Shown: positions 3,227-16,499 of the stretch, piece by piece
Position numbering within the stretch: position 1 is the first letter of the stretch
Layout: each line of letters opens with the position of its first letter
DNA from: a virus
Strand: one strand, 5' to 3'
Virus record (IMG/VR): IMGVR_UViG_3300002040_000748
Span: 1 to 25,088 of that record
DNA length: 25,088 bases
Program-made: the position numbers and the translations under genes
The notes under the pieces: model-generated
Database searches by the model: none
Seen by the model: the letters and a program-made list of their open reading frames with translations, nothing else
Told to the model about the DNA's origin: nothing

Positions 3227-3497
3227 CCGGGGTCCACCGACGGGTCCAGCCGGGGTCCATGCCGCCAACCCATTGAATTCAATGGTTCCTTCCTGGCGAC
3301 TATGTATGCTGGCGGGCTTGGCGCGATGTTTCGCCAGCGACAGGGCCGGATTTTTGGGAAGCCACCGGAGTCCAGCGTCCAGCCGCGGCGTCCTGAAACC
3401 CTCGTGAATTCAAACATCTGAGCGGCCGCGCGGGGTGGATACCCCGCGGATACCGGAGTCCAGCCGGAAGCCGGTGGACCCAACGTGCCGGAGTCCA
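3227..3497 (+). repeat. Dispersed CCGGRGTCCA repeat array
   Basis: Exact CCGGRGTCCA copies lie at 3227, 3250, 3365, 3453 and 3488. Partial copies are ACGGGTCCA (3240) and GCGTCCA (3375), with an inverted TGGACC at 3475. Two clusters (3227-3259 and 3365-3497) flank the palindrome at 3270-3285. Their position just upstream of a ParB-domain gene makes a protein-binding array plausible; the partner is unknown. Confidence 0.6.
3270..3285. promoter_or_regulatory. 16-bp perfect palindrome, candidate operator
   Basis: CCATTGAATTCAATGG is a perfect dyad with an AT-rich centre in GC-rich DNA. It lies between the two clusters of CCGGRGTCCA repeats, about 250 bp upstream of the methyltransferase start. 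Repressor or activator binding is inferred. Confidence 0.5.
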
Positions 3498-3535
3498 TCC
3501 CGGCCGATGCCGATCGACCATCGACAGGAACCTGC

Positions 3536-4903
3536 ATGACCCTCGCCTTCGCCCCCGAGCGGATCGAGACCTGGCCGCTTGCGCGCCTGCAGCCCTACGC
3601 GAAGAACGCGAAGGTGCACGGGCCCGACCAGGTCGCGAAGATCGCCGCCAGCATGGCCGAGTTCGGCTGGACCGTGCCCTGCCTCGTCGGCGAGGACGGC
3701 GAGGTGATCGCGGGCCATGGCCGCATCCTCGCCGCCGAGACGCTGGGCATCAGCGAGGCGCCGGTCATCGTGCTCGGGCACCTGACCGAGGCGCAGCGGC
3801 GAGCATACCGGATCGCTGACAACCGCCTGGTCGAGAGCCCCTGGGATGATGCGCTGCTCGCTGCCGAGCTGAAGGACCTGCTGGCCGAGGATTTCGACCT
3901 CGCGCTGACCGGCTTCGACGACGGCGAGCTCGACAAGCTGCTGGCGCTGGACCCCGACGTCGAGGACGGCGCCGCGCCGGGCGGTGGCCACGCTCCGGTC
4001 ACCATTCCCGAGCCGCCGCGGAACCCTGTCTCACGGACGGGCGACCTCTGGCTGCTCGGTGATCACCGCCTGCTCTGCGGCGACAGCACCAGCCACGACG
4101 ACGTGCGTCGCCTGATGAACGGCGAGCGCGCGGCGCTGTTCGCGACCGACCCGCCCTATCTCGTGGACTACGACGGCTCGAACCACCCGACGCGCAACAA
4201 GGATTGGAGTCAGAGCTACGGCGTGACCTGGGACGACAGCAGCCAGGGCGCCGAGCTCTACGACGGCTTCATCGCCGCCGCCGTCGCGGAGGCCATCGCG
4301 GAGGATGCGGCCTGGTACTGCTGGCACGCCTCGCGCCGCCAGGCGATGCTGGAGGCCTGCTGGGAGAAGGCGGGGGCCTTCGTCCACCAGCAGATCATCT
4401 GGGTGAAGGACCGCGGGGTCCTGACCCGCTCGCACTACCTCTGGAAGCACGAGCCCTGCTTCATGGGCTGGATCAAGGGCAAGCGCCCGCCAAAGGTGGC
4501 CGACGAGACGCCGCCTTCGACCTGGGAGATGCCGAGCTTCGCGAAGGACGAGCGTCCCGACCACCCGACGCCGAAACCGCTCGACGCCTTCGGCATCCCG
4601 ATGCGCCAGCACGTCGCCCGCGGCGGGCTCTGCTACGAGCCTTTCTCCGGCTCGGGCTCGCAGATCATGGCGGGCGAGGCCAACGGCCGCCGCGTCTTCG
4701 CGATGGAGATCAGCCCGGCCTATGTCGATGTCGCCGTGGAGCGATGGCAGGCGGAGACCGGCCGTGCCGCGGCGCTCGACGGCGATGGCCGGAGTTTCTC
4801 CGAGATCGCGGAGGAGCGGCGCGGCGTGACGGCAGCCGAGGACCCGCCGCAGGAACAGGCCTGCGTCGAGAAGCCGACGCGGCGGCGGAGCAAGGCAGCG
4901 TGA
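3536..4903 (+). CDS. ParB-like nuclease domain fused to DNA methyltransferase (455 aa)
   Basis: Residues 1-130 form a ParB/Srx-type domain with the characteristic GEVIAGHGRILAA motif (residues 55-67). Residues 165-410 form an amino-methyltransferase of beta-type order: catalytic DPPY (205-208) first, HPTPKPL (343-349), then the AdoMet-binding EPFSGSGS (368-375). It should methylate adenine N6 or cytosine N4 in phage DNA, a common defence against host restriction; target specificity cannot be read. The C-terminal 45 residues are charged and disordered, ending in a basic run. ATG 3536 is chosen because AGGAA lies just upstream; a GTG at 3485 would add 17 residues running through the repeat array. 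No cognate restriction enzyme is nearby. The stop overlaps the next start. Confidence 0.9.
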   Translation: MTLAFAPERIETWPLARLQPYAKNAKVHGPDQVAKIAASMAEFGWTVPCLVGEDGEVIAGHGRILAAETLGISEAPVIVLGHLTEAQRRAYRIADNRLVESPWDDALLAAELKDLLAEDFDLALTGFDDGELDKLLALDPDVEDGAAPGGGHAPVTIPEPPRNPVSRTGDLWLLGDHRLLCGDSTSHDDVRRLMNGERAALFATDPPYLVDYDGSNHPTRNKDWSQSYGVTWDDSSQGAELYDGFIAAAVAEAIAEDAAWYCWHASRRQAMLEACWEKAGAFVHQQIIWVKDRGVLTRSHYLWKHEPCFMGWIKGKRPPKVADETPPSTWEMPSFAKDERPDHPTPKPLDAFGIPMRQHVARGGLCYEPFSGSGSQIMAGEANGRRVFAMEISPAYVDVAVERWQAETGRAAALDGDGRSFSEIAEERRGVTAAEDPPQEQACVEKPTRRRSKAA

Positions 4904-9813: not shown

Positions 9814-10020
9814 ATGGCCGACTGGACGGAAGCGGAGCTGGCGGCGCTCCGGCGCGCCTATGCGAGCGGGACGACGCGGGTGAGCTATGACGGCAAGACC
9901 GTGGACTACGGCTCGGCCGAGGATCTGCTCGGGCGCATCCGGACCATCGAGCGCCAGATCGCCGGCGCCTCGACGCGGCCCATCGCGGGCTTCGCCGGCT
10001 TCTCGCGCGGGGATCGCTGA
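9814..10020 (+). CDS. gpW-like head-tail joining protein (68 aa)
   Basis: A short helical protein beginning ADWTEAELAALRRAYASG and containing RVSYDGKTVDYGSAEDLLGRIRTIER, the signature of the lambda gpW family that plugs the packaged head for tail attachment. ATG 9814 is chosen over ATG 9802 because GGAAGGA precedes at usable distance and 9802 lies inside the TerL end with no spacing. It sits between TerL and portal, exactly as in lambda, and its stop overlaps the portal start (TGATG). Confidence 0.85.
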   Translation: MADWTEAELAALRRAYASGTTRVSYDGKTVDYGSAEDLLGRIRTIERQIAGASTRPIAGFAGFSRGDR

Positions 10021-11492
10021 TGGTCTCGTGGCTCGATAGGGCCATCGCCTCGGTCGCCCCGCGGACGGCCACGCGTCGCGTGCTGGCGCGGCAGGCCTTC
10101 GAAGGGTTGGCCCGCTCCTACGAAGGCGCGGCCCGTGGTCGGCGCACGGATGGCTGGCACGCGCCGGGCTCCTCGGCCGACGCCGAGATCGGTCGGGCGG
10201 GCGCGCTCTTGCGCGACCGGATGCGGGACCTGGTGCGTAACAACCCGCACGCCGCCAAGGCGGTTTCGGTGCTCGTGAACAACATTGTCGGCGCCGGGAT
10301 CATGCCGCGCGCCGCGAGCGGCGACGCCGCGCTCGACCGCGAGGTGGACCGGCTCTTCGAGATCTGGGCGCGGGGCTGCGACGCCGATGGCCAGCTCGAC
10401 TTCTACGGGCTGCAGACGCTCGCCTGCCGCGAGATGGTGGAGGCCGGCGAGGTGCTGGTCCGCCGCCGGCCGCGCCGCCCGGGCGACGGCGTCATGCCGC
10501 CCGTCCAACTGCAGCTGCTCGAGGCCGATTTCCTCGACGCCACGCGCAACGGCGCGCTCGGCACGGGTCAGGCGGTGCAGGGCATCGAGTTCGACGCGCT
10601 TGGCCGGCGACGCGCCTACTGGCTCTTCGGCGCGCATCCTGGCGACGCCATGCTCAGCCTGACGGGCGGGCTCACCAGCCGCGCGGTGCCCGCAAGCGAG
10701 ATCGCCCATGTCTACGAGAAGCAGCGCACGCAGGCGCGGGGCGTGCCCTGGGGTGCGCCGGTGATCCGGGCCCTGCGCGATCTCGACGACTACGAAGTGG
10801 CCGAGATCGTCCGCAAGAAGACCGAGGCCTGCGTCACCGCCATCGTGTTCGGCGACGAGGAGGCGCAGCAGGGCATCGCCCCCGCGGTGGTCGATGCCGA
10901 CGGCAACAGGGTGGAGCAATTCGAGCCCGGCCTCATCGCCTATGCCCGCGGCGGCAAGGACATCCGGTTCAACCAGCCGGCCGCCACGGGCGGCTATGGC
11001 GAGTACAAGCGCGCGAGCCTGCACACCATCTCCGCCGGGTTCCGCGTGCCTTACGAACTGCTGACTGGGGACCTGTCCCAGGTGAACTACTCCTCGATCC
11101 GCGCGGGGCTCGTGGAGTTCCGCCGGATGATCGACGCGGTGCAGTGGCAGCTCTTCATCCCGATGTTCTGCGCGCCGGTCTGGCGCTGGTTCACGGAAGC
11201 GGCGTGGGCGGCGGGGCGCATCCCGACGCCGGACGTGCCGGTGGAATGGTCGCCGCCGAAGTTCGAGGCGGTCGATCCGCAGAAGGACGCGATGGCCGAT
11301 CTGCTGGCCATCCGCTCCGGCACCATGACGCTGGCGGAGGCCATCGCCCGGCAGGGCCGCAACCCCGACGCGGTGCTGGCCGAGATCGCGGCCACGAACG
11401 CCAAGCTCGACGAGCTGGGCCTCGTGCTCGACAGCGACCCGCGCCGGGTCACCAAGACCGGCAGCGCGCAGGCAAGCGCGCCGGCCGAATAG
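10020..11492 (+). CDS. Phage portal protein, lambda family (490 aa)
   Basis: The product forms the dodecameric ring at the unique head vertex. Lambda-type portal blocks are visible: LVRNNPHAAKAVSVLVNNIVG (about residues 70-90, split by charged residues), MVEAGEVLVRRR, AHVYEKQRTQARGVPWGAPV, and VPYELLTGDLSQVNYSSIRAGLVEFRR followed by the WQLFIPMFCAPVWRWF helix. The C-terminal 50 residues are polar. The length is usual and the frame intact. The prohead protease gene should follow directly; here it is displaced by a minus-strand gene of about 700 bp. Confidence 0.95.
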   Translation: MVSWLDRAIASVAPRTATRRVLARQAFEGLARSYEGAARGRRTDGWHAPGSSADAEIGRAGALLRDRMRDLVRNNPHAAKAVSVLVNNIVGAGIMPRAASGDAALDREVDRLFEIWARGCDADGQLDFYGLQTLACREMVEAGEVLVRRRPRRPGDGVMPPVQLQLLEADFLDATRNGALGTGQAVQGIEFDALGRRRAYWLFGAHPGDAMLSLTGGLTSRAVPASEIAHVYEKQRTQARGVPWGAPVIRALRDLDDYEVAEIVRKKTEACVTAIVFGDEEAQQGIAPAVVDADGNRVEQFEPGLIAYARGGKDIRFNQPAATGGYGEYKRASLHTISAGFRVPYELLTGDLSQVNYSSIRAGLVEFRRMIDAVQWQLFIPMFCAPVWRWFTEAAWAAGRIPTPDVPVEWSPPKFEAVDPQKDAMADLLAIRSGTMTLAEAIARQGRNPDAVLAEIAATNAKLDELGLVLDSDPRRVTKTGSAQASAPAE

Positions 11493-11538
11493 CTACTGGG
11501 TCACCATATGTTAGGCGGTGGCCAACGAAAACTGACGG
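11493..11538. other. Short convergent gap after portal
   Basis: The 46 bp between portal and the antisense moron contain an imperfect dyad (GGTCACC ... GGTGGCC) but no convincing terminator, so transcription from either side may read into the other gene. Confidence 0.3.
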
Positions 11539-12198
11539 CTAGTTCACATCACAACCTTGCCTCTCACATTCGTCTCTAGCGATTTCCGGCTGAAACTCTG
11601 GTCGTGTCCCGTCGGGCTGGTCACTCGGGTCGGTGAAGTCGTCGTCGAGGATAATGCGCCGAATACCGGGCTCGCCGCCGGTTAGCCCACAGCCCGGTCC
11701 GAAGCCTTCGCAATCGGGTGTGTCCGGCGCCGGACATGGATTTCCCGGCTGGCCATGTTCACATGTATCCCTCGCGATTTCCGGCTGAAACTCTGGCCGT
11801 GTCCCGTCGGGCTGGTCACTCGGGTCGGTGAAGTCGTCGTCGAGGATAATGCGCCGAATACCGGGCTCGCCGCCGGTTAGCCCACAGCCCGGTCCGAAGC
11901 CTTCGCAATCGGGTGTGTCCGGCGCCGGACATGGATTTCCCGGCTGGCCATGTTCACATGTATCCCTCGCGATTTCCGGCTGAAACTCTGGTCGTGTCCC
12001 GTCGGGCTGGTCACTCGGGTCGGTGAAGTCGTAGTCGAGGATAATGCGCCTGTCGGTTGGCGGACAGAGAATTCGACCTTGCTCGTCACTAGAGCAAACG
12101 CCGATCGAATTGTTTGGGTAAAGACCCTCGGAAAACACAACCGACGGAAGCACTAAGCCTACCACAGAAGACGCGTAGACTAGCTTTTTCAACAACAT
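11539..12198 (-). CDS. Secreted Cys-rich repeat protein, candidate moron (219 aa)
   Basis: The protein starts with a signal peptide: KK near the N-terminus, a hydrophobic core (LVYASSVVGLVLPSVV), and likely cleavage near VFS/EG. The mature part contains a 65-residue unit, repeated about 2.4 times, that begins RRIILDDDFTDPSDQPDGTR and has four Cys (DTCEHG, NPCPAP, PDCEGF, GPGCGL). The protein is strongly acidic and rich in Pro and Gly, so an exported, disulfide-containing, perhaps surface-exposed product is expected. No family is recognised. ATG 12198 is chosen over GTG 12204 because GAGG lies 5-6 nt upstream. It runs antisense to the flanking late genes, is lower in GC, and separates portal from protease; foreign origin is inferred. 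Confidence 0.75.
   Translation of the reverse strand: MLLKKLVYASSVVGLVLPSVVFSEGLYPNNSIGVCSSDEQGRILCPPTDRRIILDYDFTDPSDQPDGTRPEFQPEIARDTCEHGQPGNPCPAPDTPDCEGFGPGCGLTGGEPGIRRIILDDDFTDPSDQPDGTRPEFQPEIARDTCEHGQPGNPCPAPDTPDCEGFGPGCGLTGGEPGIRRIILDDDFTDPSDQPDGTRPEFQPEIARDECERQGCDVN
11578..12050 (-). repeat. 195-bp tandem repeat, about 2.4 copies
   Basis: Copies begin at 11581, 11776 and 11971 (period 195 bp, 65 codons). The two full copies differ at one base (T/C near 11602/11797), and the partial third (to 12050) has one further change (GTCGTC to GTCGTA). The in-frame period and near identity indicate a recent duplication able to expand or contract by recombination. Confidence 0.95.
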
Positions 12199-12234
12199 TA
12201 ACACCTCGCGAAAAATGAGTGCGCACCAAAGCGA

Positions 12235-12263
12235 ACGCTATCGGTCGCGTTAAAGGAAATCAA
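12235..12263 (-). promoter_or_regulatory. Possible promoter for the secreted moron
   Basis: On the minus strand TTGATT (12263-12258) is followed after 17 bp by TAGCGT (12240-12235), a weak sigma-70-like match. It overlaps the Shine-Dalgarno of the plus-strand protease-capsid gene, so the two transcripts could interfere. The match is weak. Confidence 0.25.
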
Positions 12264-14330
12264 ATGGAAGAGCAGACGATCGAACTGCCGGCGTTCCGCC
12301 GGTCGGCGGAGCTGCGGCCTGCCAGCATCGACCCGGAGACGCGCAGCGTCGAGGTGATCTGGTCGACCGGCGCCCGGGTGCGGCGTGCCGCGCTCTTCGG
12401 CGAGCCGCATGACGAGGAGCTCAGCATGGCGCCCGAGCATGTGCGGCTCGAGCGGCTGAACGCGGGCGCGCCCTTCCTGAAGGTGCACGAGGCGCACGAT
12501 CTCGACGCCGTGATCGGCTCGGTCGTGCCGGGCTCGGCGCGGATCGAGAACGGACAGGGCATCGCCCGCATCCGGCTCTCCGAGCGCGACGCGGTGGGCG
12601 ACATCTGGCGCGACATCGAGGCCGGGCACATCCGCGCGGTCTCCATCGGCTACCAGGTCCACCGCTTCGAGATCTCGAAGCCCGACGGCCAGCGCGAACT
12701 CTGGCGCGCGGTGGACTGGACCCCGTTCGAGATCTCCGCCGTGCCCGTGGGCGCCGACCCCGCCGCCGGCTTTCGCGCCAAGGGCGAACATCACGACTGC
12801 GTCCTCCACCGCCGGGACGCCCCCACCGAGCAAGGAGCATCCCCGATGACGGACACGACCCAGACAGCGGCCGAGCCGGCCGAGCAGAAGAGCGAAACCG
12901 CAGTGCCCGAGGAGACGAGCATGACCGACGACAAGACCGGCGCTGCCGAAACGCAGACCCGCGCCGCCGACACGAAGCCCAAGGCGACCAAGCCCGCGCC
13001 CGACCCGGCGCCCGAGGATCGCGCCCGCAGCGTCGACACCGACGCGCTGGTCAGCGAAGCCCGCGCGCAGGAGCGCGAGCGCGTCTCCACGATCCACGGC
13101 CTCGCCGACAAGCTCCATCTCGAGCGTGGCTTCGCCGACGACCTGATCAAGCGCGGCGTCTCCATCGACGAGGCGCGTCGGCTGATCCTCGACCAGGTCG
13201 CGGCCAAGGCGGACGAGACGCGGACCTTCCCCCATGTCTCGATCCCGCTTGGCGGGCGCGACGCCACGGTCACGCGGCGCGAGGCGATCTCGAACGCGCT
13301 CCTGCACCGCTACAGCCCGACGCTGTTCCCGCTGGAGGACGCCGCCCGCGAGTACCGCGGAATGACGCTGATGGAACTCGCCCGCGAAAGCCTTGAGACC
13401 GCGGGCGCCAGCACCCGCGGCCTTTCGCGCGACGAGGTGGCGACGCGTGCGCTGCACACGACCTCGGACTTCCCCGAGATCCTCGCAGCCGTCACCAACA
13501 AGACGCTGCGCCAGGCCTACGAGGCCTATCCGCGGACCTTCCCGCTCTTCTGCCGGCAGGTGCTGGCGACCGACTTCAAGGCGATGCACCGCGTCCAGCT
13601 GGGCGAGGCGCCGCAGCTTCTGAAGGTCGGCGAGAGCGGCGAGTTCAAGCGCGGCACGCTCGGCGAGAGCAAGGAGAGCTACCGCATCGAGACCTACGGC
13701 CGCGTCGTCGCCATCACCCGGCAGGTGCTGATCAACGACGATCTCGACGCCTTCACCCGGATCCCGGCGATGTACGGCAACTCGATCGCGCAGCTGGAGT
13801 CGGACGTGGTCTGGGACATCGTGACGTCGAACCCGGCGATGGCCGACGGCACGGCGCTCTTCCATTCGACCCACAAGAACCTCGCCGGCTCCGGCGCGGC
13901 GCTCGGGGTCGACAGCGTGGGCCTCGCGCGCGCGGCGATGCGCAAGCAGACCGGGCTCGACAAGAAGACGGTGCTGAACATCCGCCCCGCCTTCCTAATC
14001 GTGCCGGCGGCGCTGGAGCTCAAGGCCGAGCAGCTGGTCGCGCAGAACCTCGTGCCCGCCCAGAGCGGCAACGTGGTGCCCCAGTCTATCCGCACGCTCT
14101 CGCCCATCGCCGAGCCCCGGCTCGATGCCGCGAGCGAGACGGCCTGGTATCTGGCCGCCAGCCCCAACCAGATCGACACGATCGAGTACGCCTATCTCGA
14201 GGGCCAGCAAGGCGCCTACATCGAGACGCGCAACGGCTTCGACGTCGACGGCGTCGAGATCAAGTGCCGCCTCGACTTCGGCGCCAAGGCCATCGACTGG
14301 CGCGGCCTCTACAAGAACCCCGGCGCGTGA
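12264..14330 (+). CDS. Prohead protease-major capsid fusion, gpT-like capsid (688 aa)
   Basis: Residues 1-185 are an HK97/U35-type prohead protease: candidate catalytic His75/His78 in VHEAHDLDAVIGSV and Ser127 in RAVSIGYQV. Residues 195-290 are a low-complexity Ala/Thr/Glu/Lys linker that probably acts as a scaffolding delta domain. Residues about 290-688 match Mu gpT-type capsids, with AMHRVQLGEAPQLLKVGES, QLESDVVWDIVTSNPAMADG and a LFHSTHKNL block. ATG 12264 is chosen because AAAGGAAA (12252-12258) precedes it; a GTG at 12219 lacks such a site. Two in-frame internal ATGs with strong Shine-Dalgarno sequences (12846 and 12921) lie at the domain boundary, so free capsid protein can be made without the protease. 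The frame is intact. Confidence 0.9.
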   Translation: MEEQTIELPAFRRSAELRPASIDPETRSVEVIWSTGARVRRAALFGEPHDEELSMAPEHVRLERLNAGAPFLKVHEAHDLDAVIGSVVPGSARIENGQGIARIRLSERDAVGDIWRDIEAGHIRAVSIGYQVHRFEISKPDGQRELWRAVDWTPFEISAVPVGADPAAGFRAKGEHHDCVLHRRDAPTEQGASPMTDTTQTAAEPAEQKSETAVPEETSMTDDKTGAAETQTRAADTKPKATKPAPDPAPEDRARSVDTDALVSEARAQERERVSTIHGLADKLHLERGFADDLIKRGVSIDEARRLILDQVAAKADETRTFPHVSIPLGGRDATVTRREAISNALLHRYSPTLFPLEDAAREYRGMTLMELARESLETAGASTRGLSRDEVATRALHTTSDFPEILAAVTNKTLRQAYEAYPRTFPLFCRQVLATDFKAMHRVQLGEAPQLLKVGESGEFKRGTLGESKESYRIETYGRVVAITRQVLINDDLDAFTRIPAMYGNSIAQLESDVVWDIVTSNPAMADGTALFHSTHKNLAGSGAALGVDSVGLARAAMRKQTGLDKKTVLNIRPAFLIVPAALELKAEQLVAQNLVPAQSGNVVPQSIRTLSPIAEPRLDAASETAWYLAASPNQIDTIEYAYLEGQQGAYIETRNGFDVDGVEIKCRLDFGAKAIDWRGLYKNPGA
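12832..12923 (+). promoter_or_regulatory. Internal ribosome binding sites for separate capsid translation
   Basis: AAGGAG (12832-12837) stands 8 nt before in-frame ATG 12846, and GAGGAG (12909-12914) stands 6 nt before in-frame ATG 12921. Both ATGs are followed by MTD and lie just after the protease domain. This layout suggests the capsid is produced alone in excess over the fusion, as with lambda C/Nu3. Confidence 0.65.
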
Positions 14331-15062: not shown

Positions 15063-15688
15063 AGCTGAAGCTCGACATCACGCCCGATCTCGTCGTCGCC
15101 ATGGCCGCAGAGGTGAAGGCGGGCGAAAAGGCCGTCACCGCCGCCATGCGCGAGGCCGGGACCGGGCTGAAGACCGCCTGGCGCGGCCAGATCACCGGCG
15201 CGGGGCTCGGGCGGCGGCTCGCGAACTCGATCCGCAGCCAGACATACCCGAAGGCCGGCGAGAGCCTGAACGCCGCGGCGCTCGTCTGGTCCAAAGCTCC
15301 TGTCATCGTCGGCGCCCACGACACCGGCCCGCTGATCCGCTCTAAGGACGGGTTCTGGCTCGCGATCCCGACCGAGGCCGCCGGCCGTGGCCTCCGCGGC
15401 GCCAAGCTCACGCCCGGCGAATGGGAGCGCCGCCGCGGCCTGCGTCTGCGCTTCGTCTATCGCCCCCGAGGTCCGAGCCTGCTCGTCGCCGACAGGGCCC
15501 GCATCAACACCCGTGGCCAGGCGGTGGCGTCGCGCGCGAAGACCGGTCGCAACCAGGTCACTGCGCCGATCTTCCTGCTGGTGCCGCAGGTCAAGCTGCC
15601 GAAGCGGCTGGATCTGGACCGCGACGCCGAGCGGGCGCACGACAGCGTGCCGGGGTTGATCGTGGCGAATTGGGTGGAGGGGAGATGA
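15059..15688 (+). CDS. DUF6441 family tail completion protein (209 aa)
   Basis: This matches the prophage family DUF6441 from memory: LDITPDLVVAMAAEVKAGEK, TGLKTAWRGQITGAGLGRRL, VIVGAHDTGPLIRSKDG and FLLVPQVKLPKRLDL. The layout (helical N-terminus, then a basic beta region) and the position between the head-tail joiner and the tail terminator fit a gpZ/HK97-gp10-like neck protein, which is an inference. GTG 15059 overlaps the previous stop and has TGAGG upstream. Its end is only 9 bp from the stop of a convergent minus-strand gene, with no terminator between them. Confidence 0.8.
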   Translation: MKLKLDITPDLVVAMAAEVKAGEKAVTAAMREAGTGLKTAWRGQITGAGLGRRLANSIRSQTYPKAGESLNAAALVWSKAPVIVGAHDTGPLIRSKDGFWLAIPTEAAGRGLRGAKLTPGEWERRRGLRLRFVYRPRGPSLLVADRARINTRGQAVASRAKTGRNQVTAPIFLLVPQVKLPKRLDLDRDAERAHDSVPGLIVANWVEGR

Positions 15689-15697
15689 GGAGACCTT

Positions 15698-16435
15698 CTA
15701 CGCCGATTTTCTGATCGACAGTGTCGTCTTTCCTACCTTTAACATAACGCCGCAAAGCACAAGTGCTGGAAACAACCTGAAGAGAATCCATTCAAGACCT
15801 TCGGGGCTTATGAGATCGGAGGATGCGACGTCTGCATTTGGGCCACGTTCTACAATCTCGCTTAGATCGCGGACCCGATTATTAGCAGATATCGCTTCAC
15901 TTGTTGCGCGTGCGGCAGCATCGACTACCGAAAGGGGAAGTTCACATCCCGGAGGATAGTCGGCCAGCAGTAGCCCGTCTCTTTCACGCTGCGGATCGAC
16001 TTCAATTGAGTCCATGAGGTCGGCTGTCATCTGTTGAGCTACGCAGTCGCCTATCACTTCCGGAGGTATGTTTTCCAAACTCGTTGAAGTTTCCCGACGC
16101 AATTGTGAAGCAGCCTGTGCTTCTTCCCTCGCCTCTGGAAGTTCTGCTGAGGCCTGAGCGAATGTGATTTCTGCATCCTGCTGGAGGATTCGATCTATCT
16201 CAGAGAGATATTGAGCGCCAAGACCAATCACCGCACCAACAATCAAGTAGTATGCGAGGTCAGTAAAACCAAAGAACCTCTCAGCGTCTTTCACGGCGGC
16301 GCTTTGAGCAACCCACTGGCAAATTAGTAATACCGGCAGTGGGACAATGAACACCCACCAAAATGTAGAAGCGAAGTAGGCGGAAATAAGTAGTAGAGCT
16401 GAGATTGCGATGGTTATGTTCCGGCCAGCCTTCAT
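15698..16435 (-). CDS. Four-helix membrane protein, candidate moron (245 aa)
   Basis: Hydrophobic segments lie at about residues 7-22, 25-44, 60-77 and 214-234. Between the third and fourth is a polar domain of about 135 residues with a coiled-coil-like N-terminal part (ASAELPEAREEAQAASQLRR) and two Cys (GDCVAQQ and PPGCELP) that could form a disulfide if the domain is periplasmic. No family is recognised. GGGAGG lies upstream of ATG 16435 on the minus strand. The gene is clearly poorer in GC than its neighbours, runs antisense to them, and splits two adjacent tail genes, all marks of a moron. A role in superinfection exclusion or host fitness is a guess from the membrane location. Confidence 0.75.
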   Translation of the reverse strand: MKAGRNITIAISALLLISAYFASTFWWVFIVPLPVLLICQWVAQSAAVKDAERFFGFTDLAYYLIVGAVIGLGAQYLSEIDRILQQDAEITFAQASAELPEAREEAQAASQLRRETSTSLENIPPEVIGDCVAQQMTADLMDSIEVDPQRERDGLLLADYPPGCELPLSVVDAAARATSEAISANNRVRDLSEIVERGPNADVASSDLISPEGLEWILFRLFPALVLCGVMLKVGKTTLSIRKSA

Positions 16436-16463
16436 ATTCTGCCTCCCACCTAATGTATCGGCC

Positions 16464-16499
16464 TGTGCGATAGTCCGCGATGTCGCACACGCTTGTCAC
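16464..16499 (-). promoter_or_regulatory. Candidate promoter and operator dyad for the membrane moron
   Basis: On the minus strand GTGACA (16499-16494; 5 of 6 to TTGACA) precedes GACTAT (16475-16470) by 18 bp. Overlapping it, TGTGCGA (16464-16470) and TCGCACA (16483-16489) form a perfect 7-bp inverted repeat with 19-bp centre spacing, as expected for a dimeric regulator. The -10 match is weak. Confidence 0.35.

Follow-up and report, generated by a model that had tools for sequence, protein, structure and literature searches.

The antisense open reading frame (ORF) at 11539..12198 on the minus strand (219 amino acids; ATG at 12198, stop at 11539) is read here, with a probability of roughly 0.7, as a moron of a temperate alphaproteobacterial phage, foreign cargo that has taken the place of the spacer between the portal and protease-capsid genes and whose product is probably exported, acidic, and disulfide containing. 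The window covers the whole of its IMG/VR virus record, which is 25,088 bases long. Phage cargo is an ordinary kind of thing; the protein itself is an orphan, and the site is seldom used.

Comparison with relatives delimits an inserted or replaced stretch at 11489..12269 with no homology to 15 close relatives. In these relatives (L002 to L016), the nearest viral loci among the best 80 of at least 594, the spacing between the portal and capsid genes is 10 to 12 nt, and the protease-capsid fusion proteins are 86 to 97% identical to that of the window. Homology to them ends between 11473 and 11489, mostly at 11488, and restarts at 12270. The insert shows a GC content of 0.58, compared to about 0.70 in its surroundings, which confirms the lower GC content given in the original prediction, and the comparison with relatives gives good support to the claim of a foreign gene inserted among late genes. 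On one side lies the portal gene (10020..11492, plus strand; lambda type, Phage_portal_2, 7e-116), whose C-terminal tail is shortened at the junction; on the other lies a protease-major capsid fusion gene (12264..14330, plus strand; phrog_4523, 2e-252), whose start was set from relatives. The insert takes the place of the variable C-terminal tail of the portal and of the start region of the capsid gene, and it brings the fusion gene a new ribosome-binding site, AAAGGA, identified by eye at 12252..12257 on the plus strand. The portal of the window has 6 residues past the TGSAQ motif, and other occupied portals have 7, 11, and 11, compared to a median of 28 (range, 9 to 38) in 148 unoccupied portals; with an unoccupied minimum of 9, a short tail is not exclusive to occupied junctions. 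The ORF is convergent with the portal gene and divergent from the fusion gene. Its earlier placement as antisense between portal and protease genes is exact in coordinates and strand, with the correction that the right-hand neighbor is a protease-capsid fusion. An IS-like origin was considered and rejected, as inverted repeats of at least 12 nt are lacking apart from a 16-nt palindrome in the repeat units.

Morons are extra genes between two phage genes that are neighbors in close relatives, with a base composition differing from that of the flanking phage genes and with a promoter and terminator of their own; they are expressed in the lysogen and dispensable for phage growth. PMC7067206 gives a place antisense to lytic genes as a characteristic of such accessory loci. 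The window ORF is an extra gene between adjacent genes, with an odd composition and an orientation antisense to lytic genes. STMMW_20121 of the Salmonella prophage ST64B, described in the same paper, is likewise an extra gene opposite the lytic strand in a prophage. It is a different protein with its own promoter identified by RNA-seq, whereas the window ORF is known from sequence and occupies a junction within the head genes. The titles and abstract openings returned by literature searches contain no description of either this cargo site or the second one described below, and for PMC8224337, a survey of Rhodobacteraceae prophages, a term search of the main text finds none of "portal," "hypervariable," and "insertion site."

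Scans with the fusion protein give at least 594 confirmed relatives among viral contigs and 381 among species genomes, of which the best 80 each were kept. Named hosts in the genome scan are Rhodobacteraceae and other Alphaproteobacteria. The claim that the gene is encoded by a prophage holds for the phage family, which is found as prophages within bacterial contigs. The 160 loci (best 80 of at least 594 viral and best 80 of 381 genome loci), counted as records and not as independent events, certain viral and genome loci being the same strain, include 156 with a portal match and 154 with a readable junction. Not counted are L001, the window itself; L033 and L113; and L019, L049, L051, and L101, in which no portal is found. 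Portal-capsid spacing is 0 to 28 nt in 151 of the 154 readable junctions from these best 80 plus best 80 loci; the long junctions are those of L091 (278 nt), L095 (476 nt), and L103 (473 nt), with 771 nt in the window. In L033 and L113, the portal and protease-capsid frames are continuous without a stop, as if fused; the two are apparently one contig, both having 10,256 bases and the same match coordinates, and the source of L113 is Methylobrevis pamukkalensis. By the capsid fusion protein, the nearest cultured relatives are the Rhodobacter capsulatus RcC phages (RcKemmy), with 43.6% identity. RcKemmy shares with the window the gene order of terminase, gpW, portal, capsid fusion, and head-tail genes but lacks an insert at both cargo sites. 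Prophages 93 to 98% identical to L119 occur as L127, L133, L134, L136 to L140, L148, and L152. Their segments of 12 to 15.7 kb, all with a cargo length of 2,887 bp, lie in Rhodovulum, Paracoccus, Roseibium, Jiella, Amaricoccus, Hoeflea, Tropicimonas, and other hosts, and because segments this similar occur in many genera, the L119-type phage seems to cross orders.

Besides the window, seven distinct records are occupied at the portal-capsid junction, by two unrelated small cargo families, all antisense. Ruegeria marisrubri ZGT118 and Alkalilacustris brevis are among the bacteria with different cargo at this junction. L091 carries a zinc-ribbon-like ORF of 78 amino acids with no Pfam match at cutoff; a relative of this ORF in L174 was discounted as evidence for the site, as the L174 locus matches neither a portal nor a capsid gene. 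The antisense ORFs of L095 and L103, each of 113 amino acids, are homologous to each other. A scan of viral contigs with the L095 protein gives four loci: in L169, L170, and L171, the gene sits between the portal gene and the capsid gene, antisense to both, and in L172, which is the same contig as L019, it lies ahead of the capsid gene with the portal missing. The contig of L019 and L172 also has a transposase-like ORF, recognized by eye, beside this cargo. In genomes, the 113-amino-acid protein is matched in 3 of 394: L175 has it at the portal-capsid junction, and L176 and L177 contain distant relatives, around which the stretch examined gives no match to phage head genes. The cargo genes of L095 and L169 are identical, and the two may be one strain. 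Between L095 and L103, the changes at the three codon positions number 21, 16, and 61; since the differences lie mostly in third positions, this gene is, by its substitution pattern, under purifying selection and maintained for its protein. The 113-amino-acid family (L095, L103, L169 to L172, and L175) resembles the window cargo in its junction, in its antisense orientation, and in the shortened portal tail of both measured cases; it differs in being unrelated in sequence to the repeat protein, in having homologues of its own, and in an N terminus that, by eye, is not signal-like. Because seven other records have unrelated antisense genes there, the portal-capsid junction is, on this comparison, a rare, reusable cargo site for morons. 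The constant antisense orientation over three cargo families is suggestive only.

The predicted protein of the window begins with a signal-peptide-like N terminus of 24 residues (12127..12198, minus strand), recognized by eye and hydropathy, with two lysines, a hydrophobic stretch, and V-F-S before the proposed cut; its best 15-residue hydropathy mean is 1.93, just below an arbitrary cut of 2.0. Tandem-repeat and protein analyses show 65-residue units on the minus strand at 11857..12051 (unit 1) and 11662..11856 (unit 2), followed by a partial unit 3 with the C terminus at 11542..11661, so that units start at residues 50, 115, and 180 and the third is incomplete. At the DNA level, the array at 11579-12050 (period of 195 bp, 2.4 copies, 98% matches) has the top score, 930, among the 12 tandem-repeat rows of the window. 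The duplication looks recent, since units 1 and 2 differ by only 3 nt. A perfect 16-nt palindrome, TGTCCGGCGCCGGACA, is present in each full unit (11721-11736 and 11916-11931). The 195 residues past residue 24 include 12 cysteines and 42 Asp plus Glu residues, compared to 14 Lys plus Arg residues, with a pI of 4.05; the description as a Cys-rich acidic repeat, here of 65-residue units in tandem, is thus accurate. AlphaFold2 without an alignment gives a mean pLDDT of 36.5, and this model is useless.

No homologue of the repeat protein is found in viral contigs with the entire protein or with a 105-residue two-unit query, nor in phages and plasmids by tblastn. The 105-residue query gives 53 pattern matches in genome contigs, 0 of them confirmed; genome searches covering 25, 394, 347, and 337 genomes give no credible homologue. 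Five matches at 0.005 to 0.09 in the 25-genome search were discarded as noise, 4 of them spanning stops, and two matches below 0.001 in the 394-genome search were rejected: L167, antisense to a permease-like gene (by eye), and L168, which crosses three stops. The insert DNA matches nothing in plasmids or in all collected loci, and the junction DNA pattern gives 0 matches among viral contigs. Distant homologues may exist, since pattern scans catch close relatives only. Searches of Pfam, PHROG, PADLOC, and PDB give no match to the protein at an E value of 0.001 or better. The NCBIfam family NF040672 (SCO2322) matches part of one repeat weakly (E value of 3.4e-4) but at 21 bits, under the curated cutoff of 85, probably through shared composition. 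The repeat-unit search proposed with the original prediction, which was meant to reveal homologues always in prophages at this site, thus yields no homologue at all; the same site is occupied by unrelated antisense genes.

The insert could also be a recombined segment that is noncoding or decaying, with an open frame that is fortuitous or a relic; this reading is unlikely. It agrees with the lack of homologues and family matches and with the lack of a promoter-like site. No promoter or terminator for the ORF is found by a scan whose consensus is of the E. coli type. Without the duplicate repeat unit, the longest ORF of the insert has 156 amino acids, a length matched in 41 of 2,000 dinucleotide shuffles, which is only moderate evidence for coding. 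The codon score against the late genes of the phage itself is -0.487 per codon for the ORF, compared to -0.396 for a frame on the plus strand that contains 4 stops, so that late-gene codon usage does not favor the ORF frame; foreign DNA would account for this score, which nevertheless gives no support. The GC content at third codon positions is 0.62 in the ORF, compared to 0.89 to 0.93 in four late genes. Opposed to a noncoding insert are the signal-like N terminus, the gene under purifying selection at the same site in other phages, and a Shine-Dalgarno-like GAGG (12204..12207, minus strand; by eye) ahead of the ATG, where the sequence on the ORF's own strand reads GAGGTGTTA-ATG. The 33 codons common to the three repeat units provide a further argument: 6 of 8 codon changes are synonymous, compared to an expectation of 21.9% for single-base changes (0.219; binomial P of 0.002), and the remaining five frames have 0 to 3 synonymous changes among 7 to 10. 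A chance ORF appears unlikely because most of the changes that separate the repeat copies are synonymous (6/8; P of about 0.002). A lack of homologues had been proposed as a sign of a chance ORF; no homologue is found, but the clean insertion, the Shine-Dalgarno-like site, and the synonymous pattern oppose chance.

An antisense RNA or regulatory segment, in which transcription toward the portal gene restrains the head genes in the lysogen while the protein plays a secondary role, is very improbable. The ORF points at the portal gene, and the scan finds no terminator separating the two; PMC7067206 also describes a prophage antisense RNA active in superinfection exclusion; opposed to this, the insert has no RNA family match, the sequence pattern looks protein coding, and other phages keep the cargo at this site as a protein. 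Least probable of all, and barely plausible, is a protein with a structural or assembly role in this particular phage, such as a head decoration or a portal partner replacing the lost portal tail: the gene sits in the head gene cluster and accompanies a shortened tail, but it is antisense to the late operon, encodes a signal-like N terminus, and is missing in close relatives with 86 to 97% identical capsid genes.

For the moron reading, a multistep course can be proposed. Recombination at the conserved flanks, portal on one side and capsid on the other, would have brought in the cargo; the insert would remove the variable portal tail and supply the new capsid ribosome-binding site, leaving the head genes still expressed. 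In the lysogen, with the late genes silent, the cargo gene would be transcribed from its own promoter, and during lysis, late transcription would cross it as antisense RNA. The product would be exported by Sec as a flexible, acidic, disulfide-containing repeat protein outside the cytoplasm, where its most plausible action might be to alter the envelope, for example, against superinfection. The N terminus and the cysteine content are the only features that point to export, which is probable, and to an action at the envelope. The repeat protein would be a further orphan, probably exported candidate among lysogenic-conversion genes, and a junction of a few nucleotides in a head operon can apparently accept cargo provided that the insert restores capsid translation. 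It is a distinctly doubtful proposal that prophages encode a new class of exported, tandem-repeat, disulfide-stabilized envelope proteins, seen here for the first time, that change rapidly in repeat number and block incoming phages at the surface or in the periplasm, with this protein encoded at a previously undescribed site for antisense cargo, the use of which accompanies portal-tail replacement.

A second antisense, low-GC cargo ORF of 245 amino acids with a hydrophobic N terminus lies at 15698..16435 on the minus strand, with no confirmed relative in viral contigs. Its site (15689-16479) is flanked by a gp10-like gene ending at 15688 and a tail terminator gene at 16480. Both flanks are found in 128 loci of the best 80 plus best 80; 117 of the 128 have 222 to 3,305 bp between them, and 11 have overlapping genes, with diverged flanking proteins (38 to 56% identity) in 10 of the 11 and L066 (80%) as the exception. 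The site contains 102 distinct sequences, the window included, with 149 ORFs of at least 90 amino acids in 97 clusters, although these ORFs were picked greedily and some are false in GC-rich inserts. ORFs occur on the minus strand alone in 37 of 61 low-GC inserts, on the plus strand alone in 20, and on both strands in 4. Family scans of 83 proteins (80 of the 97 cluster representatives plus three portal-capsid junction proteins; 17 representatives that were short or resembled false frames were excluded) give, among others, PADLOC model matches to Aga_Nuclease, QueC, PDC-S64, and capP and Pfam matches to RiboL-PSP-HEPN, PIN, chromate and sulfate transporters, and an oxidoreductase, each in 1 to 3 of the 83. 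Judged from these sequences, the gp10-like/tail-terminator junction is a hypervariable cargo site with defense-like, transporter, and enzyme genes in either orientation, far busier than the portal-capsid junction and the more useful lead to defense and accessory genes. Elsewhere in the window, the ORF at 3485-4903, located 5' of the terminase genes, matches phrog_498 (3e-130), a family described as ParB-like nuclease and DNA methyltransferase.
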